A stretch of 64,000 nt of DNA from an uncultured Flavobacteriaceae bacterium (lineage in GTDB: Bacteria; Bacteroidota; Bacteroidia; Flavobacteriales; Flavobacteriaceae). Below are positions 1 through 42,710 of the stretch, piece by piece. Both the position numbers and the translations under genes were made by a program. Every line of letters starts with the position of its first letter. Within the stretch, counting starts at the first letter, position 1. The stretch lies in assembly GCA_913020295.1 (NCBI GenBank), contig CAJWAA010000014.1, positions 1-64,000 of the forward strand. Reading direction: 5' to 3'. The notes below the pieces were generated by a model, which was not told the DNA's origin, made no database searches, and saw only the letters and a list, made by a program, of their open reading frames with translations.

Positions 1-138
1 TTAAATGATACAGTAGTATCCTCATCTTTTTTGCAGTTCAAGAACTGTAAAATGAGTAGGAGCGATAATAGAAATTTGATCGAAGAATTCATCAACAATT
101 TTACCACTTATTTTATGAAACCCAAAGAAGGTTATTGA
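1..138 (+). CDS. possible 3' end of a gene cut by the window edge
   Basis: Frame 1 is open from the first base to a TGA at 136-138 (45 codons), ending in a plausible charged and aromatic C-terminus (…NFTTYFMKPKEGY). The start lies outside the window, so the product cannot be named. In such AT-rich DNA a 45-codon open frame can arise by chance. It lies outside the putative att-bounded segment (201-1868), so it could belong to whatever follows on the far side of the mnmE attachment site. Confidence 0.3.
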   Translation, partial: LNDTVVSSSFLQFKNCKMSRSDNRNLIEEFINNFTTYFMKPKEGY

Positions 139-180
139 AAGTTATTAGCTCAAGTATAATATGAGTTATACAAGCATATG

Positions 181-223
181 AAAATCCCTGAAACCTATAT
201 TTATTTCCCGATACAGAACTTAC
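181..223 (-). repeat. second copy of the mnmE 3' end (att-like, distal)
   Basis: On the minus strand positions 218-201 read TTCTGTATCGGGAAATAA, i.e. the codons Phe-Cys-Ile-Gly-Lys-stop that end MnmE. The copy matches 1831-1873 (the true mnmE end plus its downstream flank) at 38 of 43 positions by my count, in the same orientation. Identity falls away on both sides. The 3' end of mnmE (trmE/thdF) is the known integration site of SGI1-type genomic islands, where the core repeat is about 18 bp and lies over these same codons. I read it as an attachment-site duplicate; no recombinase gene is visible in the window. Confidence 0.65.
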
Positions 224-572
224 AATTTATGTTTTATAATATTGATAATCAATAGATTAAATGTCTGTGATTAGCCCATTTACCATTAATAAACCATTAA
301 ACATTCGCAAAAACTCACTTATTTTTAAGTTAATTCTTTTCATTTTCAAATAAAGGTATCTATATATCTGGTTAAAAAAAAACTAAAACTTTGCAGACGA
401 TTCTTGCAAGATTACAGGTGGGTGGGTTTTAGGAGGGTGTTGTTAGGGGGTTTTTGGATGCGCGTTGAAAATAATCCATGATCTTCTTTTAATTTTTTCA
501 TTAGATGTATTTTTAATCACAACCCATTAACTTAGGCTATATTAAAAACATTTATCATTTAAACCAATATCA
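219..572. other. non-coding leader of the islet gene
   Basis: There is no ORF of note here. The stretch is very AT-rich except for a G-rich patch at 417-450. No clear TAnnTTTG promoter box was found; the nearest candidate at about 386-393 (AAACTTTG) misses one consensus base. The DUF418 gene starts at 573. Confidence 0.5.
417..450 (+). other. G-tract cluster, possible G-quadruplex
   Basis: Four G runs occur at 420-422, 424-426, 435-437 and 446-450, separated by 1, 8 and 8 bases, with extra GG pairs at 417-418 and 432-433. This is exceptional in such AT-rich DNA. The tracts are on the coding strand about 120 bases before the DUF418 start, so they would lie in its upstream region or 5' UTR. 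Two loops are slightly longer than the strict G3N1-7 rule allows. Confidence 0.4.
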
Positions 573-1649
573 ATGAATTCAAGGATAATCGGAATTGACG
601 TAGCTAGAGCTTTGGCTATTATAGGAATGGTGATAGTCAATTTTAAAGTGGTATTAGGAGAAGAGGGGAAGAACTGGATAAAATTGCTTGCTAGTGTTTT
701 TGATGGTAAAGCATCAGCTACATTTGTTGTCCTAGCTGGAGTCGGAATTGCTCTGGGCACAAACTCTGCCATACGAAACAATGATCTAAGCAAGCTGAGG
801 ATGGCTCAAATTAAAATTACCAAACGTGCTTTACTTCTATTTATCATCGGACTTTCTTACATGGTAATTTGGCAAGCGGATATACTTCATTTTTATGGTA
901 TTTATATGCTCTTCACACTTCTTCTGATCAGGAGTGCACCCCAGCATATTTTGATATGGGCGGCAGCCGTAATACTAACCTATCCATTTTTACTTTATTG
1001 GTTTGATTATGAAACGGGATGGAATTTAGATACGCTAGAGTATCTCGATTTTTGGGAATTCGATGGGTTTCTTCGTAATCTATTCATTAACGGATTTCAC
1101 CCTGTGCTGCCATGGGTGTCGTTTATGCTTATTGGATTTTGGTACGGCAAGCAAGATTTAAAAAGCGATCAGTTTTTAAAGAAAGTAATATGGGTTAGTT
1201 CCGCAGTTTTTATTGGCATTCAATTTTTGTCCTATATCTCTTTACTTTTTCTTTCTTATGGTAATGAGGAGATCCAATCTGATTTATCAGAAATTATCGG
1301 TACAAACCCAATGCCTCCTTTACCGATTTATATGCTTAACGGTATAGCAATTGCTATTCTTGTGATCTCATTATGTATACTCCTTGGAAAGAGATATGCG
1401 ACGAATAAAGTGGTTGTTGCGTTAAAGAATACAGGTCAATTAGCCTTAACCTTTTATGTTGCCCATGTAGTACTTGGAATGGGTGTTGTTGAGGCGATAA
1501 GTCCTTCCAAGATGGGAACATATAGTATTGAATTTTCAGTTGGTTATGCCTTAATATTTAGTCTGTTATGTATTGTGTTTGCCAACCTTTGGTTGAAATT
1601 TAAACATTATGGTCCGTTGGAATGGATTATGAAAATGATCGTCAAATAA
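573..1649 (+). CDS. DUF418 / heparan-glucosaminide acetyltransferase-like membrane protein
   Basis: A 358-residue polytopic inner-membrane protein with about ten hydrophobic segments. The N-terminus (IGIDVARALAIIGMVIVNF, residues 6-24) carries the D-x-A-R-A-(L/F)-A-(I/L)-x-G-M pattern of the DUF418/DUF1624 superfamily, and the last third (LALTFYVAHVVLGMG) has the DUF418 signature. Relatives are thought to move acyl groups across the membrane, but the substrate is unknown. The gene stands alone, convergent with mnmE, and is the only gene between the two copies of the mnmE 3' end, so it may be cargo of a site-specific insertion. The family is secure; the function is not. Confidence 0.8.
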   Translation: MNSRIIGIDVARALAIIGMVIVNFKVVLGEEGKNWIKLLASVFDGKASATFVVLAGVGIALGTNSAIRNNDLSKLRMAQIKITKRALLLFIIGLSYMVIWQADILHFYGIYMLFTLLLIRSAPQHILIWAAAVILTYPFLLYWFDYETGWNLDTLEYLDFWEFDGFLRNLFINGFHPVLPWVSFMLIGFWYGKQDLKSDQFLKKVIWVSSAVFIGIQFLSYISLLFLSYGNEEIQSDLSEIIGTNPMPPLPIYMLNGIAIAILVISLCILLGKRYATNKVVVALKNTGQLALTFYVAHVVLGMGVVEAISPSKMGTYSIEFSVGYALIFSLLCIVFANLWLKFKHYGPLEWIMKMIVK

Positions 1650-1830
1650 AAAAACCGCTACACAATAACAATATAACGGTTATATCACTATAAGTTGCTC
1701 CCACTATTACTCAAAGTTGGAGTTCAACTCAATCTACTTGTGGATTAGGTTTCTTTAAAAGACCCGCACAATTGCATACAAAAGCATTTCCTTACAATAA
1801 CCTAAATGATAGGGGATTAGAAGCTTTTTG

Positions 1831-1873
1831 AAACTCTCTGAAATCTATATTTATTTTCCGATACAGAATTTAC
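1831..1873 (-). repeat. mnmE 3' end and flank, att-like proximal copy
   Basis: The minus strand at 1868-1851 reads TTCTGTATCGGAAAATAA, the last codons and stop of mnmE. The same sequence, 38/43 identical over the longer block, recurs at 181-223 in direct orientation. Recombination between the copies would excise 1650 bp carrying the DUF418 gene and leave mnmE with an unchanged C-terminus. Confidence 0.65.
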
Positions 1874-3251
1874 TAAAGATATTACCCAACATTTCGTCAT
1901 TAGTAATTTCTCCAGAAATCTCACCAAGGAAATGTATAGCCTCATTGATGTGAACACTTATCAAATCTCCACTCAATTCATTTTTTAATCCCTCTTTGAT
2001 GTTTATAATGGCTCCCAATGCATTTTTTAGTGCCTGATAATGTCTTGCATTAGAAATGACTATATCACCCTGAACAGCATCCTTCTTGATTTGGTTGTAT
2101 ATTATTATTTTAAGTTGCTCGATTGAATTAGGTTCAAAAGTAGAAATACTACAAAATGCATCAAACGGTATTTTAGCTGAATCTTCTTTAAGTGCTTTTT
2201 TCAATGAAAACTTCTTAGGTCTATGAATGAGGTCAGTTTTATTTTCTACCAATATCATTTTCATACCCTCTCTTTTAAATCCATCCAGTGCTGCTTTTAT
2301 TTCATGAAAGGTTGCGTCATTGGTGTCAAAAAGATAAATCATTACTTTGGCTAAATCTACTTTCTCTTTCGCTTTGGCGACTCCTAAGGCCTCTATTTGA
2401 TCTTTTGTCTCACGTAAACCTGCAGTATCAATAAACCTAAATTCTATACCCGATATGGTCACGGTATCTTCTATGGTGTCCCTTGTTGTACCAGGAATTT
2501 CAGATACTATCGCACGATCCTCTTTTAGAAGGGCATTGAGTAAAGAGGATTTACCAGCATTGGGTTTACCTACTATGGCTACAGGAACCCCTTTTTTGAT
2601 CACACTGCCATATTGAAAAGAATCGAGAAGCGATTTAATTTTTGATTGTAGGGAATCAATTAAATCCTTAAGCGCGACCCGATCCGCAAAAGCAACGTCT
2701 TCTTCAGCAAAATCCAATTCCAAGGTAATCAATGAGGCAAAATCCAATAGTTTTTGCCTTAGCTGGCAAATTTCATCAGCATATCCCCCTCGCATTTGAT
2801 TAATGGCTATCTCGTGAGCTGCTTTGGATTCGGATGCAATCAAGTCAGCTACTGCCTCTGCCTGACTTAAATCCATCTTTTTATTCAAAAAAGCCCTTAA
2901 AGTAAATTCTCCTGGCTTTGCATGCTGCGCTCCTTTCGCTATAAAAAGGCGTAAAATCTCCTCTTGTATGAAGTTTGAGCCGTGGCAGGAAATTTCAACT
3001 ATATTTTCTCCTGTATAAGAGTGGGGGGCTTTAAAAACGGTTACAAGAACTTCGTCTAATGTTCTTTCATCTAAATGCAGTGTTCCCAAATGTACCGTAT
3101 TACCTTTTTGGTCGTTAAGTTTTTTTTTGGATTTTGCTTTAAAGCACATGGAAACCATTTTAATTGAATCACTACCAGAGAGTCTGAATAAACAAATGGC
3201 TGAACTTCCAGCTGCGGAAGCTTTGGCAATAATGGTTCCTTGATTGTACAT
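1851..3251 (-). CDS. mnmE: tRNA uridine-5-carboxymethylaminomethyl modification GTPase MnmE
   Basis: Cytosolic GTPase which, with MnmG, builds the 5-carboxymethylaminomethyl group on wobble U34 of several tRNAs. It has 466 residues, normal for the family. The N-terminal tetrahydrofolate-binding domain (1 to about 118) is followed by the helical domain and an inserted G domain: G1 GKPNAGKSS at 229-236, the G2 stretch GTTRD at 254-258, G3 DTAGLRE at 275-281 and G4 NKTD at 337-340. The C-terminus FCIGK carries the invariant cysteine. The start MYNQGTIIAKASAAGSSAI fits the family N-terminus. The gene is separated by about 80 bases from the upstream acetyltransferase-like gene. Its 3' end is duplicated at 181-223. 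Confidence 0.97.
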   Translation of the reverse strand: MYNQGTIIAKASAAGSSAICLFRLSGSDSIKMVSMCFKAKSKKKLNDQKGNTVHLGTLHLDERTLDEVLVTVFKAPHSYTGENIVEISCHGSNFIQEEILRLFIAKGAQHAKPGEFTLRAFLNKKMDLSQAEAVADLIASESKAAHEIAINQMRGGYADEICQLRQKLLDFASLITLELDFAEEDVAFADRVALKDLIDSLQSKIKSLLDSFQYGSVIKKGVPVAIVGKPNAGKSSLLNALLKEDRAIVSEIPGTTRDTIEDTVTISGIEFRFIDTAGLRETKDQIEALGVAKAKEKVDLAKVMIYLFDTNDATFHEIKAALDGFKREGMKMILVENKTDLIHRPKKFSLKKALKEDSAKIPFDAFCSISTFEPNSIEQLKIIIYNQIKKDAVQGDIVISNARHYQALKNALGAIINIKEGLKNELSGDLISVHINEAIHFLGEISGEITNDEMLGNIFSKFCIGK

Positions 3252-3332
3252 TATTTAAAATTAATTTTCATGCTGGGTTTAAAATAATTTATTTATGAAC
3301 TAGATATAAAATTTACTTGGGAGTTTTCGAAA

Positions 3333-4487
3333 TTATGTCGAATCTTCTTTTTTTACTTTTTGTGTTACCGTTACTCTTTTTTTATGCTTACGATGTTCGT
3401 AATTTTTCCACAAATTCTGGATTGAGTTATTTTCCTCAAGCTCTGGATTGGTCTCCACAATGTTGTATCCACGTTTGTTAAATGTTTTTTGCATTTCATT
3501 GAAGATGATAGCTGTAACCCCTTTGTTTTGATATTTTGGATCTACCCCAATAAGATAAAAAGAAGCCCTAGAGTTAAAATACAAAGCCTTAAATAAATGG
3601 AGAAAACCGAATGGTAACATTTTGCCATTTACTTTTTTTAAAGCTCTAGTAAAAGAGGGCATGGTAATACAAAAAGCAACCAGTTCATCATTCTTATCTG
3701 CTATACATTTGATAAATTCAGGATGTATATAACGAAAATATTTTTTCTTGTAATGTTTTATTTGTTCTGGTTGGATTGGTACAAAAGTTTGGAGTTTACC
3801 ATAAGTTTTTTCCAATAAAAAAAACATTTTTTCAATATATGGAATGATCTGCTTTTTCGATTTAAAATCCACGTTTTTTAATTCATACCGTTTGAGCATT
3901 AAATCTGAAAACTTTTTAATTTTTTCAGGTGATTTATCAAATGAGCTTAAGGTAATTTCATATTCTACCCAAACTGCAAGATTCTTATATCCTAATTGTT
4001 TAAAGTGTTCATAGTAATAAGGTGCATTGTACCAAGTGATCATGGTATTGCTTTCTTCAAAACCTTCAACAAGCATTCCAGCCTTGTCCATATTGGAAAA
4101 TCCAACAGGTCCTTCAATGAATTCCATTCCATTTTCAATTCCAATAAGATGTACTTTTTGCATTAATGCACTAGTCACTTTTATATCATCTATAGCATCA
4201 AACCATCCAAATCGAACTTTTTTCTTTTTGAGTTTTTTTACTTCAATCCAGTTTATAATTACTGCAATCCTTCCTGCAATTTTGCCATTTTTATAGGCCA
4301 AAAAATAATTAGCTTTTGCATTTCTGAATACAGGATTTTTTGATTGATCTAAAACATCAATTTCCTCCCCAATAATAGGAGGAGTCCAATAAGGGTTTTG
4401 ATTATAAAGCTTGAATGGAAAATTAACAAAACTCTTTAAATCTTTCCTATTTATGATTTCAACAACATTTATTACTTCCTTATTCAT
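3333..4487 (-). CDS. GNAT-like N-acetyltransferase (YghO-like)
   Basis: A soluble 384-residue protein. The N-terminal half (…YWTPPIIGEE…, RNAKANYFLAYKNGKIAGRIAVIIN, GWFDAIDD) and the C-terminal half (FYLIGVDPKYQNKGVTAIIFNEM…, about 310-335) resemble the two GNAT folds of YghO-like proteins common in Bacteroidota; VDPKYQNKGV corresponds to the acetyl-CoA-binding motif A. No substrate is known. It starts 4 bases downstream of the outer-membrane barrel gene on the same strand, so the two are probably co-transcribed. The C-terminus is lysine-rich (HRKHKKRVTVTQKVKKEDS). Confidence 0.65.
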   Translation of the reverse strand: MNKEVINVVEIINRKDLKSFVNFPFKLYNQNPYWTPPIIGEEIDVLDQSKNPVFRNAKANYFLAYKNGKIAGRIAVIINWIEVKKLKKKKVRFGWFDAIDDIKVTSALMQKVHLIGIENGMEFIEGPVGFSNMDKAGMLVEGFEESNTMITWYNAPYYYEHFKQLGYKNLAVWVEYEITLSSFDKSPEKIKKFSDLMLKRYELKNVDFKSKKQIIPYIEKMFFLLEKTYGKLQTFVPIQPEQIKHYKKKYFRYIHPEFIKCIADKNDELVAFCITMPSFTRALKKVNGKMLPFGFLHLFKALYFNSRASFYLIGVDPKYQNKGVTAIIFNEMQKTFNKRGYNIVETNPELEENNSIQNLWKNYEHRKHKKRVTVTQKVKKEDST

Positions 4488-39018: not shown

Positions 39019-39384
39019 TCATTTGCTGCGTTTATTGAGTCGAAGAATTTCAACGGTCTTCTCACAATTCATTACCTCCAAAGAAATGGGCTTTTCATTC
39101 CAATAACCATTGATGAAATACTTTTTACAACTATCTTTTCGGGTATTGCTTTTTCCAAAATCAATATTTGCTTTACCAAGGAAACTTTGAAAAGCCAATG
39201 AATCAAAGTCAGTGGGTACTTTATTTTGAGATTTCCAAGCCTTTTTAGAAAGGTTGCTTATAACCCTGTCGTTTGGACCATAATTACAACTCGTTTTTTT
39301 GCCTTTTAGAATTACCGCCAAAAAAATCATTCCAATAGAAAAGCCCATCATATAGAAACCCAATCGATATAATAACTTCTTCAT
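39019..39384 (-). CDS. DUF4258-like small membrane-anchored protein
   Basis: A 121-residue protein with one N-terminal membrane helix (LGFYMMGFSIGMIFLAVILKG) and a soluble part (TSCNYGPNDRVISNLSKKAW…, CEKTVEILRLNKRSK). It matches short flavobacterial proteins annotated DUF4258 that sit beside tsaE. It overlaps tsaE by 4 bases. Function unknown. Confidence 0.6.
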   Translation of the reverse strand: MKKLLYRLGFYMMGFSIGMIFLAVILKGKKTSCNYGPNDRVISNLSKKAWKSQNKVPTDFDSLAFQSFLGKANIDFGKSNTRKDSCKKYFINGYWNEKPISLEVMNCEKTVEILRLNKRSK

Positions 39385-39791
39385 ATGCTAACGACATTTA
39401 AAGTTCTTGATTCGTCATTATTGACCTTAATAGAGATTTTGGCGTGATGGGGTAATAATGTAATAATCCTTTCTCCCCATTCAATCAGGCATAGATTTCC
39501 AGAATCCAAATATTCCTCTGTGCCAATATCCAAAGCCTCTTCAATGTTTTTCAGTCGGTAGAAATCAAAGTGAAAAATTTTTCCTTTTCTTGGACTTATG
39601 TAATGGTTGACAATAGAAAATGTAGGGCTTGAAATAGGGTCAGCAACCTCCCACTTTTCACACAGTTTAGAAATTAGTGTTGTTTTTCCAGACCCCATAG
39701 CCCCTTCAAAACAAATTACTGGGCTCTGTAGATGGTCATCCAAATAATTGACTGCTTGATCAATTTGTTTCAAATTAAACCGAAAAGACAT
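39381..39791 (-). CDS. tsaE: tRNA threonylcarbamoyladenosine biosynthesis ATPase TsaE
   Basis: A 136-residue ATPase that drives cycling of the TsaBD complex making t6A37 in ANN-decoding tRNAs. The Walker A loop GAMGSGKTTLI (31-41), SPTFSIVNHY and FHFDFYRLKNIEEALDIG are typical. It lies 16 bases downstream of porX and overlaps the following DUF4258-like gene. Confidence 0.94.
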   Translation of the reverse strand: MSFRFNLKQIDQAVNYLDDHLQSPVICFEGAMGSGKTTLISKLCEKWEVADPISSPTFSIVNHYISPRKGKIFHFDFYRLKNIEEALDIGTEEYLDSGNLCLIEWGERIITLLPHHAKISIKVNNDESRTLNVVSI

Positions 39792-39806
39792 ATTACAAAT
39801 TTAACA

Positions 39807-41360
39807 CTATCGAGGACGCATTACAACAAAAGGGATGATCATTTCCTCCATTGATATTCCACCGTGTTGAAAGGTGTTTCTGAAAAAATTGGCAAAATGA
39901 TTGAAATTGTTTTGATAGACAAAATACTGTTGTTCTCTTGCAAAAATAAACTTACTATTAAGATTTGAGGCTGGTAATTGAATTGTCTTTGGGTCATTGA
40001 CCTCCATAACTGATTTAGGTGGATAACTCAAGCTTTGGCCAGTTTTGTACCTAAGATTCGTACTGAGTTCACGATTGCCTTTGATTTCTACAGGCTGATC
40101 TACATTAATGGTTCCATGGTCGGTGGTTATAATCAGATTGAAGCCCAAACCTCGTGCTTGCTGAATGATTTCCAATAGTGGAGAATTGTTAAACCAAGAT
40201 CTTGTAAGAGACCTGAAAGCCTTATTGTCTGACGCCAATTCTTTGATTATCTCCATTTCTGTTTTAGCATGTGATATCATGTCTACGAAATTATAAACTA
40301 CAACCACCAAATCGTCTTTTTGGTGATTGCTCAGAGATTTAGTTAATTCCCTTCCTGCTTTGATATTTGTTATTTTGTAATAGCTGTACTTGGAATCAAT
40401 TCTGTTTTTGAGTAATTGTGCTTTAAGAAATTCCGACTCCTTAAGATTTTTACCTCCATTTTCATTTTCATTGACCCATAGCTGAGGATATTTTTTTTGC
40501 ATTTCAAGTGGCATCATTCCAGAGAATATAGCATTTCGTGCATAATGGGTAGCTGTAGGTAGAATACTGAAATAGCTTGCTTCATCCTGCTTTTGATAAT
40601 AGTTTTCAATGATGGGTGCAATCATTTTCCATTGATCAAATCGAAGGTTGTCGATCACCAACATAAGTGTGGTTTTTCCAGATTTATCTTTTAGAATGGG
40701 GAAGAGCTTTTCACTAAGAATTCTATGGGACATAATGGGTCCTGAGTTATTTATGATCCAGTCTTCATAGTTTTTTTCTACAAATTTGGTAAAAAGGCGA
40801 TTGGCCTCTTTCATCTGACTTTGAAAAATTTCCAACATTGCTAAATCATCTAAAACCTCCAACTCCATTTCCCAGTATAACATTTTTATATAAAATTTGG
40901 ACCAGTCTTGGTGGGTTTCTAATTCATTTAGAGATAAGGATATTCTTTGGAAGGCTTGTTGGTAATTGTTGATAGTTTTCTCGGCAATCAAATTTTTGTG
41001 TTCAAATAACTTCTTGAGGGCAAGTAAAATTTGATTAGGATTAACTGGTTTAATTAAATAATCAGCAATTTTTGCACCTATGGCCTCCTCCATAATCTTT
41101 TCTTCCTCATTTTTGGTGATCATAATTACAGGAATGGAAGGAAAACGTAATTTGATCTCATTCAGCGTTTCCAGACCACCCAGCCCTGGCATGTTCTCAT
41201 CTAATAATACCACATCAAAGATTTGATTTTGCAGTAAAAGCAGGGCGTCTTGGCCACTTTTGCTGGCAGTGGTTTGGTAACCTTTATCCTCCAGGAATAA
41301 AAAATGGGGTTTGAGTAATTCAATTTCATCATCTACCCACAAGATTTTTATTGAATTCAT
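39807..41360 (-). CDS. porX: PorX: response regulator with PglZ/alkaline-phosphatase domain
   Basis: A 517-residue two-domain protein. A CheY-like receiver (1-120: ILWVDDE, phospho-acceptor Asp54 in VVLLDENMPG, Thr/Lys in VIMITKN and LIKPVNP) is joined through a helical linker to a PglZ domain (about 205-515: LMLVIDNLRFDQWK, TATHYARNAIFSGMMP, VVVYNFVDMISHAK, ITTDHGTINVD). PorX controls type IX secretion with the PorY kinase in Porphyromonas and relatives, so a T9SS is expected in this genome, though no Por/Spr structural gene is in the window. First gene of a unit with tsaE. Confidence 0.93.
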   Translation of the reverse strand: MNSIKILWVDDEIELLKPHFLFLEDKGYQTTASKSGQDALLLLQNQIFDVVLLDENMPGLGGLETLNEIKLRFPSIPVIMITKNEEEKIMEEAIGAKIADYLIKPVNPNQILLALKKLFEHKNLIAEKTINNYQQAFQRISLSLNELETHQDWSKFYIKMLYWEMELEVLDDLAMLEIFQSQMKEANRLFTKFVEKNYEDWIINNSGPIMSHRILSEKLFPILKDKSGKTTLMLVIDNLRFDQWKMIAPIIENYYQKQDEASYFSILPTATHYARNAIFSGMMPLEMQKKYPQLWVNENENGGKNLKESEFLKAQLLKNRIDSKYSYYKITNIKAGRELTKSLSNHQKDDLVVVVYNFVDMISHAKTEMEIIKELASDNKAFRSLTRSWFNNSPLLEIIQQARGLGFNLIITTDHGTINVDQPVEIKGNRELSTNLRYKTGQSLSYPPKSVMEVNDPKTIQLPASNLNSKFIFAREQQYFVYQNNFNHFANFFRNTFQHGGISMEEMIIPFVVMRPR

Positions 41361-41687
41361 TTTGCGTATCCTCGAACTAAGATTAACAATTTTGTAAATA
41401 CGAAAGTTAACTCTTTTAAATGAGCCAATTTACGGATTTATAGGTATTCGTTCCCCATTAATATTTGAGGTAATTTCCTACCAATTGTTTCAGCCTTTAA
41501 GAATTTTACAAATTCGATTTTCCTACTGTATCTTTCTGGAGAAAAATCGCACAGGATTAAGCACCGTATGGTAGTAATGCACTTAATGATTTTTTTAATT
41601 CTAAATAATCTTTACGTATTCATCAGAAGTATCATATATGTTTCCCAAGAAATTTACATCTAACTTAAATTTCATACTTTTGCAGAA
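41361..41687. other. divergent intergenic region porX/lpxD
   Basis: There are 327 bases without a supported gene. It contains the lpxD -7 box at 41675-41682 and a bulged hairpin at 41556-41587 (ATTAAG…CTTAAT with an inner ACC/GGT) followed by seven T at 41590-41596. That would act as a terminator on the plus strand or as structure in a long porX leader on the minus strand. Nothing else was recognised. Confidence 0.45.
41675..41682 (+). promoter_or_regulatory. -7 box of the lpx operon
   Basis: TACTTTTG fits TAnnTTTG fully and ends only 5 bases before the lpxD ATG (41688). Transcription would start at or next to the start codon, so the mRNA may be leaderless. No TTTG -33 element was seen at the expected distance. 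Confidence 0.5.
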
Positions 41688-42710
41688 ATGAAATTCACAG
41701 CTAAACAAATCGCTGCTCAACTTGAAGGAACTGTTGATGGTGACCCAAACGCCGAGGTTTTTCAACTTTCAAAAATTGAGGAGGCTCAAAAAGGTTCCCT
41801 AACTTTTTTATCCAATCCCAAATACACCCAATTTATTTACAAAACCCAAGCCTCTGTAACCATAGTCAATGAAGATTTTATTCCAGAGGACGATTTATCC
41901 ACTACTTTAGTTAGGGTCAACAATGCCTATGACTCATTTTCAATTCTATTGGATTATTACAATAAAGCTAAAATCAACAAGTTAGGTATTTCCAAATCTG
42001 CTGTTATTGACCCTTCAGTGAAAATGGGAAAAAATTGTTTTATTGGTGATATGACCTGTATGATGGAAGATGTCGATATTGCAGATAATGTAAAAATTTA
42101 TCCGCAGGTTTATATAGGAAGTAATGTTAGCATTGGAGCTGGTACAATCATTTTTACCGGGGCAAAAATACTGGAGGACACTATCGTTGGAGAAAATTGT
42201 ATTATTCATAGTGGGGCTGTAATTGGATCTGACGGTTTTGGATTTGCTCCACAGAAAAATGGCGATTACAAAAAAATACCACAAACGGGAATAGTGGTTT
42301 TGGGAGATCGAGTTGAAGTGGGATCTAACTCTACCATAGATCGAGCTACTTTAGGGGTCACCTCAATTGCGAATGGTGTTAAACTCGATAATCAAATTCA
42401 GATTGCTCACAATGTAGAAATTGGGGAAAATACCGTAATAGCTGCACAGACTGGAATAGCTGGATCATCAAAGATCGGTAAAAATTGCGTTATTGGTGGA
42501 CAGGTAGGTATTGCTGGACATATTAAAATTGGTGATAATGTTAAAATTCAGGGACAATCAGGGGTAATAAGTAATGTAAAGGAAAACTCAACTATTCAGG
42601 GCACCCCAGCATTCTCATATAATGATTACAACAAATCTTACGTCTATTTCAAAAATTTTCCAAATCTCGTCAAAGAAATCAACCGAGTTGTCAAGAAACT
42701 TAACCTATGA
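41688..42710 (+). CDS. lpxD: UDP-3-O-acylglucosamine N-acyltransferase LpxD
   Basis: Third step of lipid A synthesis, adding the second 3-hydroxyacyl chain. It has 340 residues. The N-terminal uridine-binding domain (AKQIAAQLEGTVDGDP…, LTFLSNPKY) is followed by a left-handed parallel β-helix of hexapeptide repeats (about 105-310), with the catalytic His likely in QIAHNVEIGEN. First gene of an operon with lpxC-fabZ and lpxA; it overlaps the next gene by 4 bases. Confidence 0.96.
   Translation: MKFTAKQIAAQLEGTVDGDPNAEVFQLSKIEEAQKGSLTFLSNPKYTQFIYKTQASVTIVNEDFIPEDDLSTTLVRVNNAYDSFSILLDYYNKAKINKLGISKSAVIDPSVKMGKNCFIGDMTCMMEDVDIADNVKIYPQVYIGSNVSIGAGTIIFTGAKILEDTIVGENCIIHSGAVIGSDGFGFAPQKNGDYKKIPQTGIVVLGDRVEVGSNSTIDRATLGVTSIANGVKLDNQIQIAHNVEIGENTVIAAQTGIAGSSKIGKNCVIGGQVGIAGHIKIGDNVKIQGQSGVISNVKENSTIQGTPAFSYNDYNKSYVYFKNFPNLVKEINRVVKKLNL

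Follow-up and report, generated by a model that had tools for sequence, protein, structure and literature searches.

A repeat of the mnmE end encloses a single gene

The window, by which we mean the whole 64,000-nucleotide stretch analysed, starts at the first base of contig C14. The mnmE gene lies near this contig start on the minus strand, and a second copy of its 3' end is found 1.65 kb away. The region contains the following features.

6-92, minus strand: first part of a lipoprotein gene (MNSSIKFLLSLLLILQFLNCKKDED...) that is truncated where the contig ends; a relative is found in genome G020
93-178, minus strand: outer flank, resembling the leader between mnmE and the integrase gene in genome G017
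179-223, minus strand: outer repeat, with the core at 201-218 (TTCTGTATCGGGAAATAA) followed by TATAGGTTTCAGGGATTTTCA
189-336, minus strand: noncoding right end of the cassette, including the core, with blastn matches in genomes G011 and G019
406-450, plus strand: G-rich stretch, apparently a degenerate copy of a repeat of ~65 bp dispersed in the genus
573-1649, plus strand: DUF418/HGSNAT_cat-like membrane protein of 358 aa (Pfam DUF418, 5.1e-18; HGSNAT_cat, 5e-15)
1829-1873, minus strand: inner repeat, with the core at 1851-1868 (TTCTGTATCGGAAAATAA, the last 18 bp of mnmE) followed by the arm-like TATAGATTTCAGAGAGTTTCA
1851-3251, minus strand: mnmE, tRNA modification GTPase (NCBIfam TIGR00450, 2.9e-117; Pfam MnmE_helical and TrmE_N)

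The two repeats (179-223 and 1829-1873) are direct copies of 45 nt with 40 identical positions (89%) at a spacing of 1650, and they form the longest direct repeat within the first 6 kb. When the 45-mer at the mnmE end was compared with 500 dinucleotide shuffles of positions 1-1828, the best match reached 29 of 45. Both repeats include the last 18 bp of mnmE (TTCTGTATCGGRAAATAA, minus strand). MnmE ends in FCIGK-stop, and the 3' end of its gene is the attachment site. Allowing at most one mismatch to the degenerate core, the 1.97-Mb assembly (91% complete) contains this 18-bp sequence only at 201-218 and 1851-1868, both on the minus strand, with no third copy. The outer repeat is 178 bases from the contig start. 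The original prediction had proposed a direct duplication of the mnmE 3' end, with 38 of 43 bases matching at 181-223. The repeat, the shuffles and the search of the whole assembly confirm the duplication, and the count was essentially right, the fuller extent being 40 of 45.

Between the repeats, the DUF418 gene is the sole cargo gene and the only ORF of note. It is intact, and the HGSNAT_cat-like portion of its product is N-terminal. A profile of 31 integrases, run against the six-frame peptides, detected no recombinase or recombinase remnant in the interval or elsewhere in the 64 kb, which together with the ORFs bears out the earlier description of a DUF418-type gene without a recombinase. 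Within the genus this gene is confined to one species, and few genomes of the family have it. The remaining 21 genus genomes contain no homologue of the protein, and close homologues with 51-63% identity were found in only nine other genomes of a family sample of 397, none with an 18-bp core within about 1.5 kb. Foreign base composition was ruled out for the cassette, as its G+C content of 34.3% is unremarkable beside the 36.3% of the window. We found no structured RNA in positions 1-4000. The viral contigs searched contained neither the DUF418 protein nor the integrase of the mnmE island in genome G006, and the core-plus-arm and right-end patterns were likewise absent from them.

Beyond the outer core, the truncated lipoprotein has a relative directly after the mnmE core in G020 (90% identity over 29 aa). 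This order of mnmE, core and lipoprotein is the arrangement that would be expected of an empty site, in a G020 contig that ends 495 bp past mnmE and differs in the bases adjacent to the core. The flank at 93-178 aligns locally with the leader between mnmE and the integrase gene of G017 with a score of 144, against a shuffle maximum of 51. No cognate integrase lies close to a core in this assembly (91% complete), and the integrase on its contig C6 was ruled out as a partner, having neither a core nor a tRNA nearby.

An integration hot spot at the mnmE 3' end in Flavobacteriales

For the order Flavobacteriales, we surveyed the sequence following mnmE in 117 genomes, mostly one per genus. A tyrosine recombinase was the first sizeable gene after mnmE in 33 of them. 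It always reads away from mnmE and is sometimes preceded by a small HTH gene. These integrases are Phage_int_SAM_5/Phage_integrase proteins of the Bacteroidota type. With a matrix built from 122 mnmE ends (threshold 20 bits or more), we searched up to 20 kb downstream for second 18-bp cores, and found 26 on the same strand as mnmE and two inverted (binomial p 1.5e-6); controls with reversed matrices gave zero and one. The identity of the two core copies drops to background just beyond the 18 bp. Identity within the core is not independent evidence, because the matrix search selects for it. A cruder count of each genome's own 18-mer, compared with control genes, gave an excess of no more than 3- to 4-fold (6 in 1.0 Mb versus 8 in 4.9 Mb). 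Two further matches, at +4724 past mnmE in L183 (G147) and at +2665 in L156 (G133), are copies of a longer stretch of the MnmE C-terminus (IFANFCIGK), and the copy in L183 continues without a stop into other coding sequence.

Assembly breaks also cluster at this site. Eight of 16 genus assemblies have a break no more than 600 bp from the mnmE 3' end, as opposed to none within the same distance of the 5' end, which fits a site that varies within populations. Across the survey, the mnmE 3' end is a widespread integration hot spot for mobile DNA in Flavobacteriales. For a large bacterial group, this marks a place where the accessory genome docks, and the 18-bp signature can be used to scan for it. 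The original prediction had hinted that such a site would be exceptional in this phylum, which is wrong; it is common there. Its reading of the repeat as a site-specific attachment duplication agrees with the same core, the tyrosine recombinases and the empty or differently filled sites found across the order. Full-text searches returned no specific published account of mnmE/trmE integration in Bacteroidetes or Flavobacteria, which is weak evidence as they covered open-access papers only.

Related genomes have empty and differently filled sites

The region downstream of mnmE in relatives had been proposed as the place where insertion would become visible, and empty sites occur there in genomes of the family, differently filled ones in members of the genus. 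In G116 (L155), an integrase island of 16.9 kb separates mnmE from genes past the second core, and in G081, G071 and G067 a mere 60-82 bp lie between those genes and the mnmE stop codon. Empty sites were likewise recognised by comparing G117 with G130, and an integrase-less 13-kb interval in G088 with G026.

Closer to the window, two members of the genus (G006 and G019) have differently filled sites whose similarity breaks exactly at the core. Starting at the core, the first 800 bp of their right flanks show 92-96% identity. To the left of this common flank the contents are unrelated, with an integrase island in G006 and a BspA-type surface protein in G019.

About half of the core-closed intervals contain no integrase

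Eight of the core-closed intervals contained an integrase, one of them split, and about a dozen did not, of which one or two are expected as chance matches. Some of the integrase-less intervals are cassettes of 1-6 kb that recur in other genera with defence cargo. The following contents were found.

L057 (G053), 931-3831 after mnmE: CBASS pair of a CD-NTase and a TIR-STING effector between two mnmE cores, without an integrase
G168: AbiEi/AbiEii, in an integrase-less interval
G086: SoFic-like (Fic-like) protein, in an integrase-less interval
G038: NTPase-like protein of 1248 aa, in an integrase-less interval
G014: ADP-ribosylglycohydrolase, in an integrase-less interval
L047 (G039), 0-1605 after mnmE: two units in succession (0.6 and 1.0 kb), both closed by an 18-bp mnmE core; one of them contains a TonB_C lipoprotein

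The DUF418 unit of the window belongs with these short integrase-less intervals. Small units that carry only cargo, such as CBASS, AbiE, Fic-like proteins, surface proteins or DUF418, suggest a way in which individual traits may be exchanged even though they bring no recombinase along.

Conserved ends adjoin exchanged cargo

The right end of the window's cassette (189-336), which outside the core and its arm is noncoding, recurs beside other genes. By blastn, it matches G011 (contig C12, 59024-59170; 75%, E 1.4e-16), where the neighbouring gene encodes a serine hydrolase, and G019 (contig C38, 2618-2754; 72%, E 2.6e-12), where the neighbour is the BspA-type protein. With the core left out, the alignment scores were 109 for G011 (shuffle maximum 57) and 68 for G019 (shuffle maximum 53). 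In G011, there is no second core within 15 kb. G014 and G019 have some 217 bp of right end in common beside unrelated cargo. Because part of this is the dispersed repeat of ~65 bp, only the terminal ~115 bp count as an element end. In G017, this terminal stretch continues into a half core (TTACTGTATTG) and then into other DNA. A crossover at this junction would lie inside the core, suggesting insertion elsewhere.

At the opposite side of the core, the motif TATAGRTTTCA-N4/5-TTTCA is common to integrase-bearing ends (G006 and G017) and integrase-less ends. Part of it may be native flank, since G006 and G019 have similar sequence outside their outer core. The left arm of the G006 integrase island recurs in G014, on a unit with a BspA-type protein.

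The repeat of ~65 bp (about GGAAAAACCATTCTACAAAACCCACCCCACCGTCAGGTAATCAGATAGGTTAGAAAGTTTTTAGG) occurs at more than 25 sites across the genus, some of them ~1.2 kb apart on one strand, and folds no better than shuffles. Examples are the degenerate copy at 406-450 of the window, L263 (1300-1370), contig C136 of G017 (39316-41904) and contig C7 of the window's own assembly (107006-107069). The C7 copy is part of a second small integrase element near that contig's end (102400-107100; L215, 4400-9178), which also encodes a 348-aa integrase, a BspA-type protein and a small protein resembling one from the G006 mnmE island.

Origin of the DUF418 cassette

Comparison of sequences among genomes establishes the repeat, the hot spot, the empty and differently filled sites, the mnmE-adjacent integrases and the conserved ends with exchanged cargo. 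We consider it likely that the window contains an integrase-less cassette flanked by attL and attR, similar to a cis-mobilisable element (CIME), which an mnmE-specific tyrosine recombinase placed at mnmE. The recombinase would be of the type found at mnmE in G006 (Phage_int_SAM_5 and Phage_integrase) and would specifically recognise the final 18 bp of the gene. A crossover joining the mnmE core to that of a circular unit would restore the mnmE end (FCIGK-stop) and leave a second core, here 1.65 kb away. The DUF418 cassette presumably entered by this core-to-core route, and its cores may still be open to a related integrase acting in trans. The cassette probably sits in a tandem array with at least one further unit on the lipoprotein side, cut by the contig end. 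The resemblance of the outer flank to the integrase leader of G017 fits such a tandem arrangement and makes the earlier suggestion of an integrase-less cargo unit within an array plausible.

Two versions of this explanation differ in whether the cassette ever had an integrase. It has about an even chance of being a decayed remnant, in which a larger integrase-bearing island was deleted down to one cargo gene and both att sites. This would make it a CIME in the strict sense, as CIMEs by definition have lost their integration and transfer genes while keeping attL and attR, and they presumably originate through decay and are mobilised in cis together with a neighbouring element (PMC5704250). The cassette resembles them in having both att sites, in the absence of integration and transfer genes and in its probable tandem position at a gene end. 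As the contig ends beside it, no active neighbour of the kind that would move a CIME is in view. Full integrase islands are present at this site in the genus, in G006 (6.5 kb) and in G017 (from the N-terminal part of its integrase), and the split integrase in L176 looks like decay in progress. Islands at the site that carry an integrase also have ends like those of the cassette. However, the window contains no integrase remnant, its DUF418 gene is complete, and many integrase-less units have neat cargos of one or two genes. These neat units, and the small defence cassettes that recur in other genera, would be at home in the second version, in which the cassette never had an integrase and hitchhiked minimally, its ends being recognised by the recombinase of co-resident mnmE islands. 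Right ends are kept while the cargo differs, both between the window (DUF418) and G011 (serine hydrolase) and between G014 (ADP-ribosylglycohydrolase) and G019 (BspA-type protein). The left arm common to a G014 unit and the G006 island, and the right end joined to different sequence after half a core in G017, point the same way. Nevertheless, the common right end of G014 and G019 is partly a dispersed repeat, the ends of the window and G019 are weakly similar without the core, and the G011 end lacks a nearby second core. We regard movement in trans as a reasonable possibility, but lean somewhat against it. A broader model, which we find rather doubtful and offer tentatively, is that the Flavobacteriales mnmE 3' end acts as an assembly line for recombinase-less cassettes of one or a few genes, often for defence, with recombinase-recognised ends in common; the integrases of resident mnmE islands would insert, stack and swap these cassettes in trans.

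Two explanations depart from an integrase-less cassette of this kind. The outer repeat and bases 1-180 could derive from the mnmE site of another strain through chimeric assembly, considering that the contig starts 178 bases beyond the outer repeat and that genus assemblies break at this site. Yet the outer copy differs from the inner one at five bases and is preceded by sequence that is not mnmE and that matches the right end of the unit in G011, making a chimera improbable. The other explanation is a remnant of a true SGI1-family island. In SGI1 and related islands of Gammaproteobacteria, the last 18 bp of trmE (mnmE/thdF) are duplicated as imperfect direct repeats (PMC3285670), and the target and the imperfect 18-bp repeats are the same here. 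By contrast, the present element is in another phylum, measures 1.65 kb and carries one membrane-protein gene; int, xis, the mobilisation genes (mpsAB, traN, traG, traH) and resistance genes are absent from the interval, and with DUF418 as its one gene it also lacks the helper plasmid response of that family. In the relatives, as far as they were tested, the site likewise showed no homologues of SGI1 int, xis or mps. Because none of that family's genes are present, we do not file the cassette under SGI1. Gene content and the Bacteroidota type of the mnmE-adjacent integrases in the order speak against membership, leaving this origin with hardly any probability. The original label "SGI1-type" therefore holds for the attachment site but not for the family.

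Relation to other systems of tandem units

Integron cassettes are also small cargo units lined up at one site with common end sequences. Here, however, neither a foldable attC-like site nor an integron integrase was seen, and single-stranded DNA folding (z-scores -0.3, -1.9 and -0.2) did not support an integron-like folded site. The ssrA-specific islands of Dehalococcoides form tandem units bounded by short repeats of the ssrA 3' end, 15 of them without an integration module (PMC3146451). They resemble the cassettes described here in being module-less tandem units bounded by repeats of a gene's 3' end, but involve a serine recombinase and ssrA instead of tyrosine recombinases and mnmE. In Gammaproteobacteria, tandem arrays of unrelated islands occur at trmE (PMC9035990). 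In two phyla, tyrosine recombinases target the mnmE gene end, and the near invariance of FCIGK-stop in MnmE is the presumed reason.
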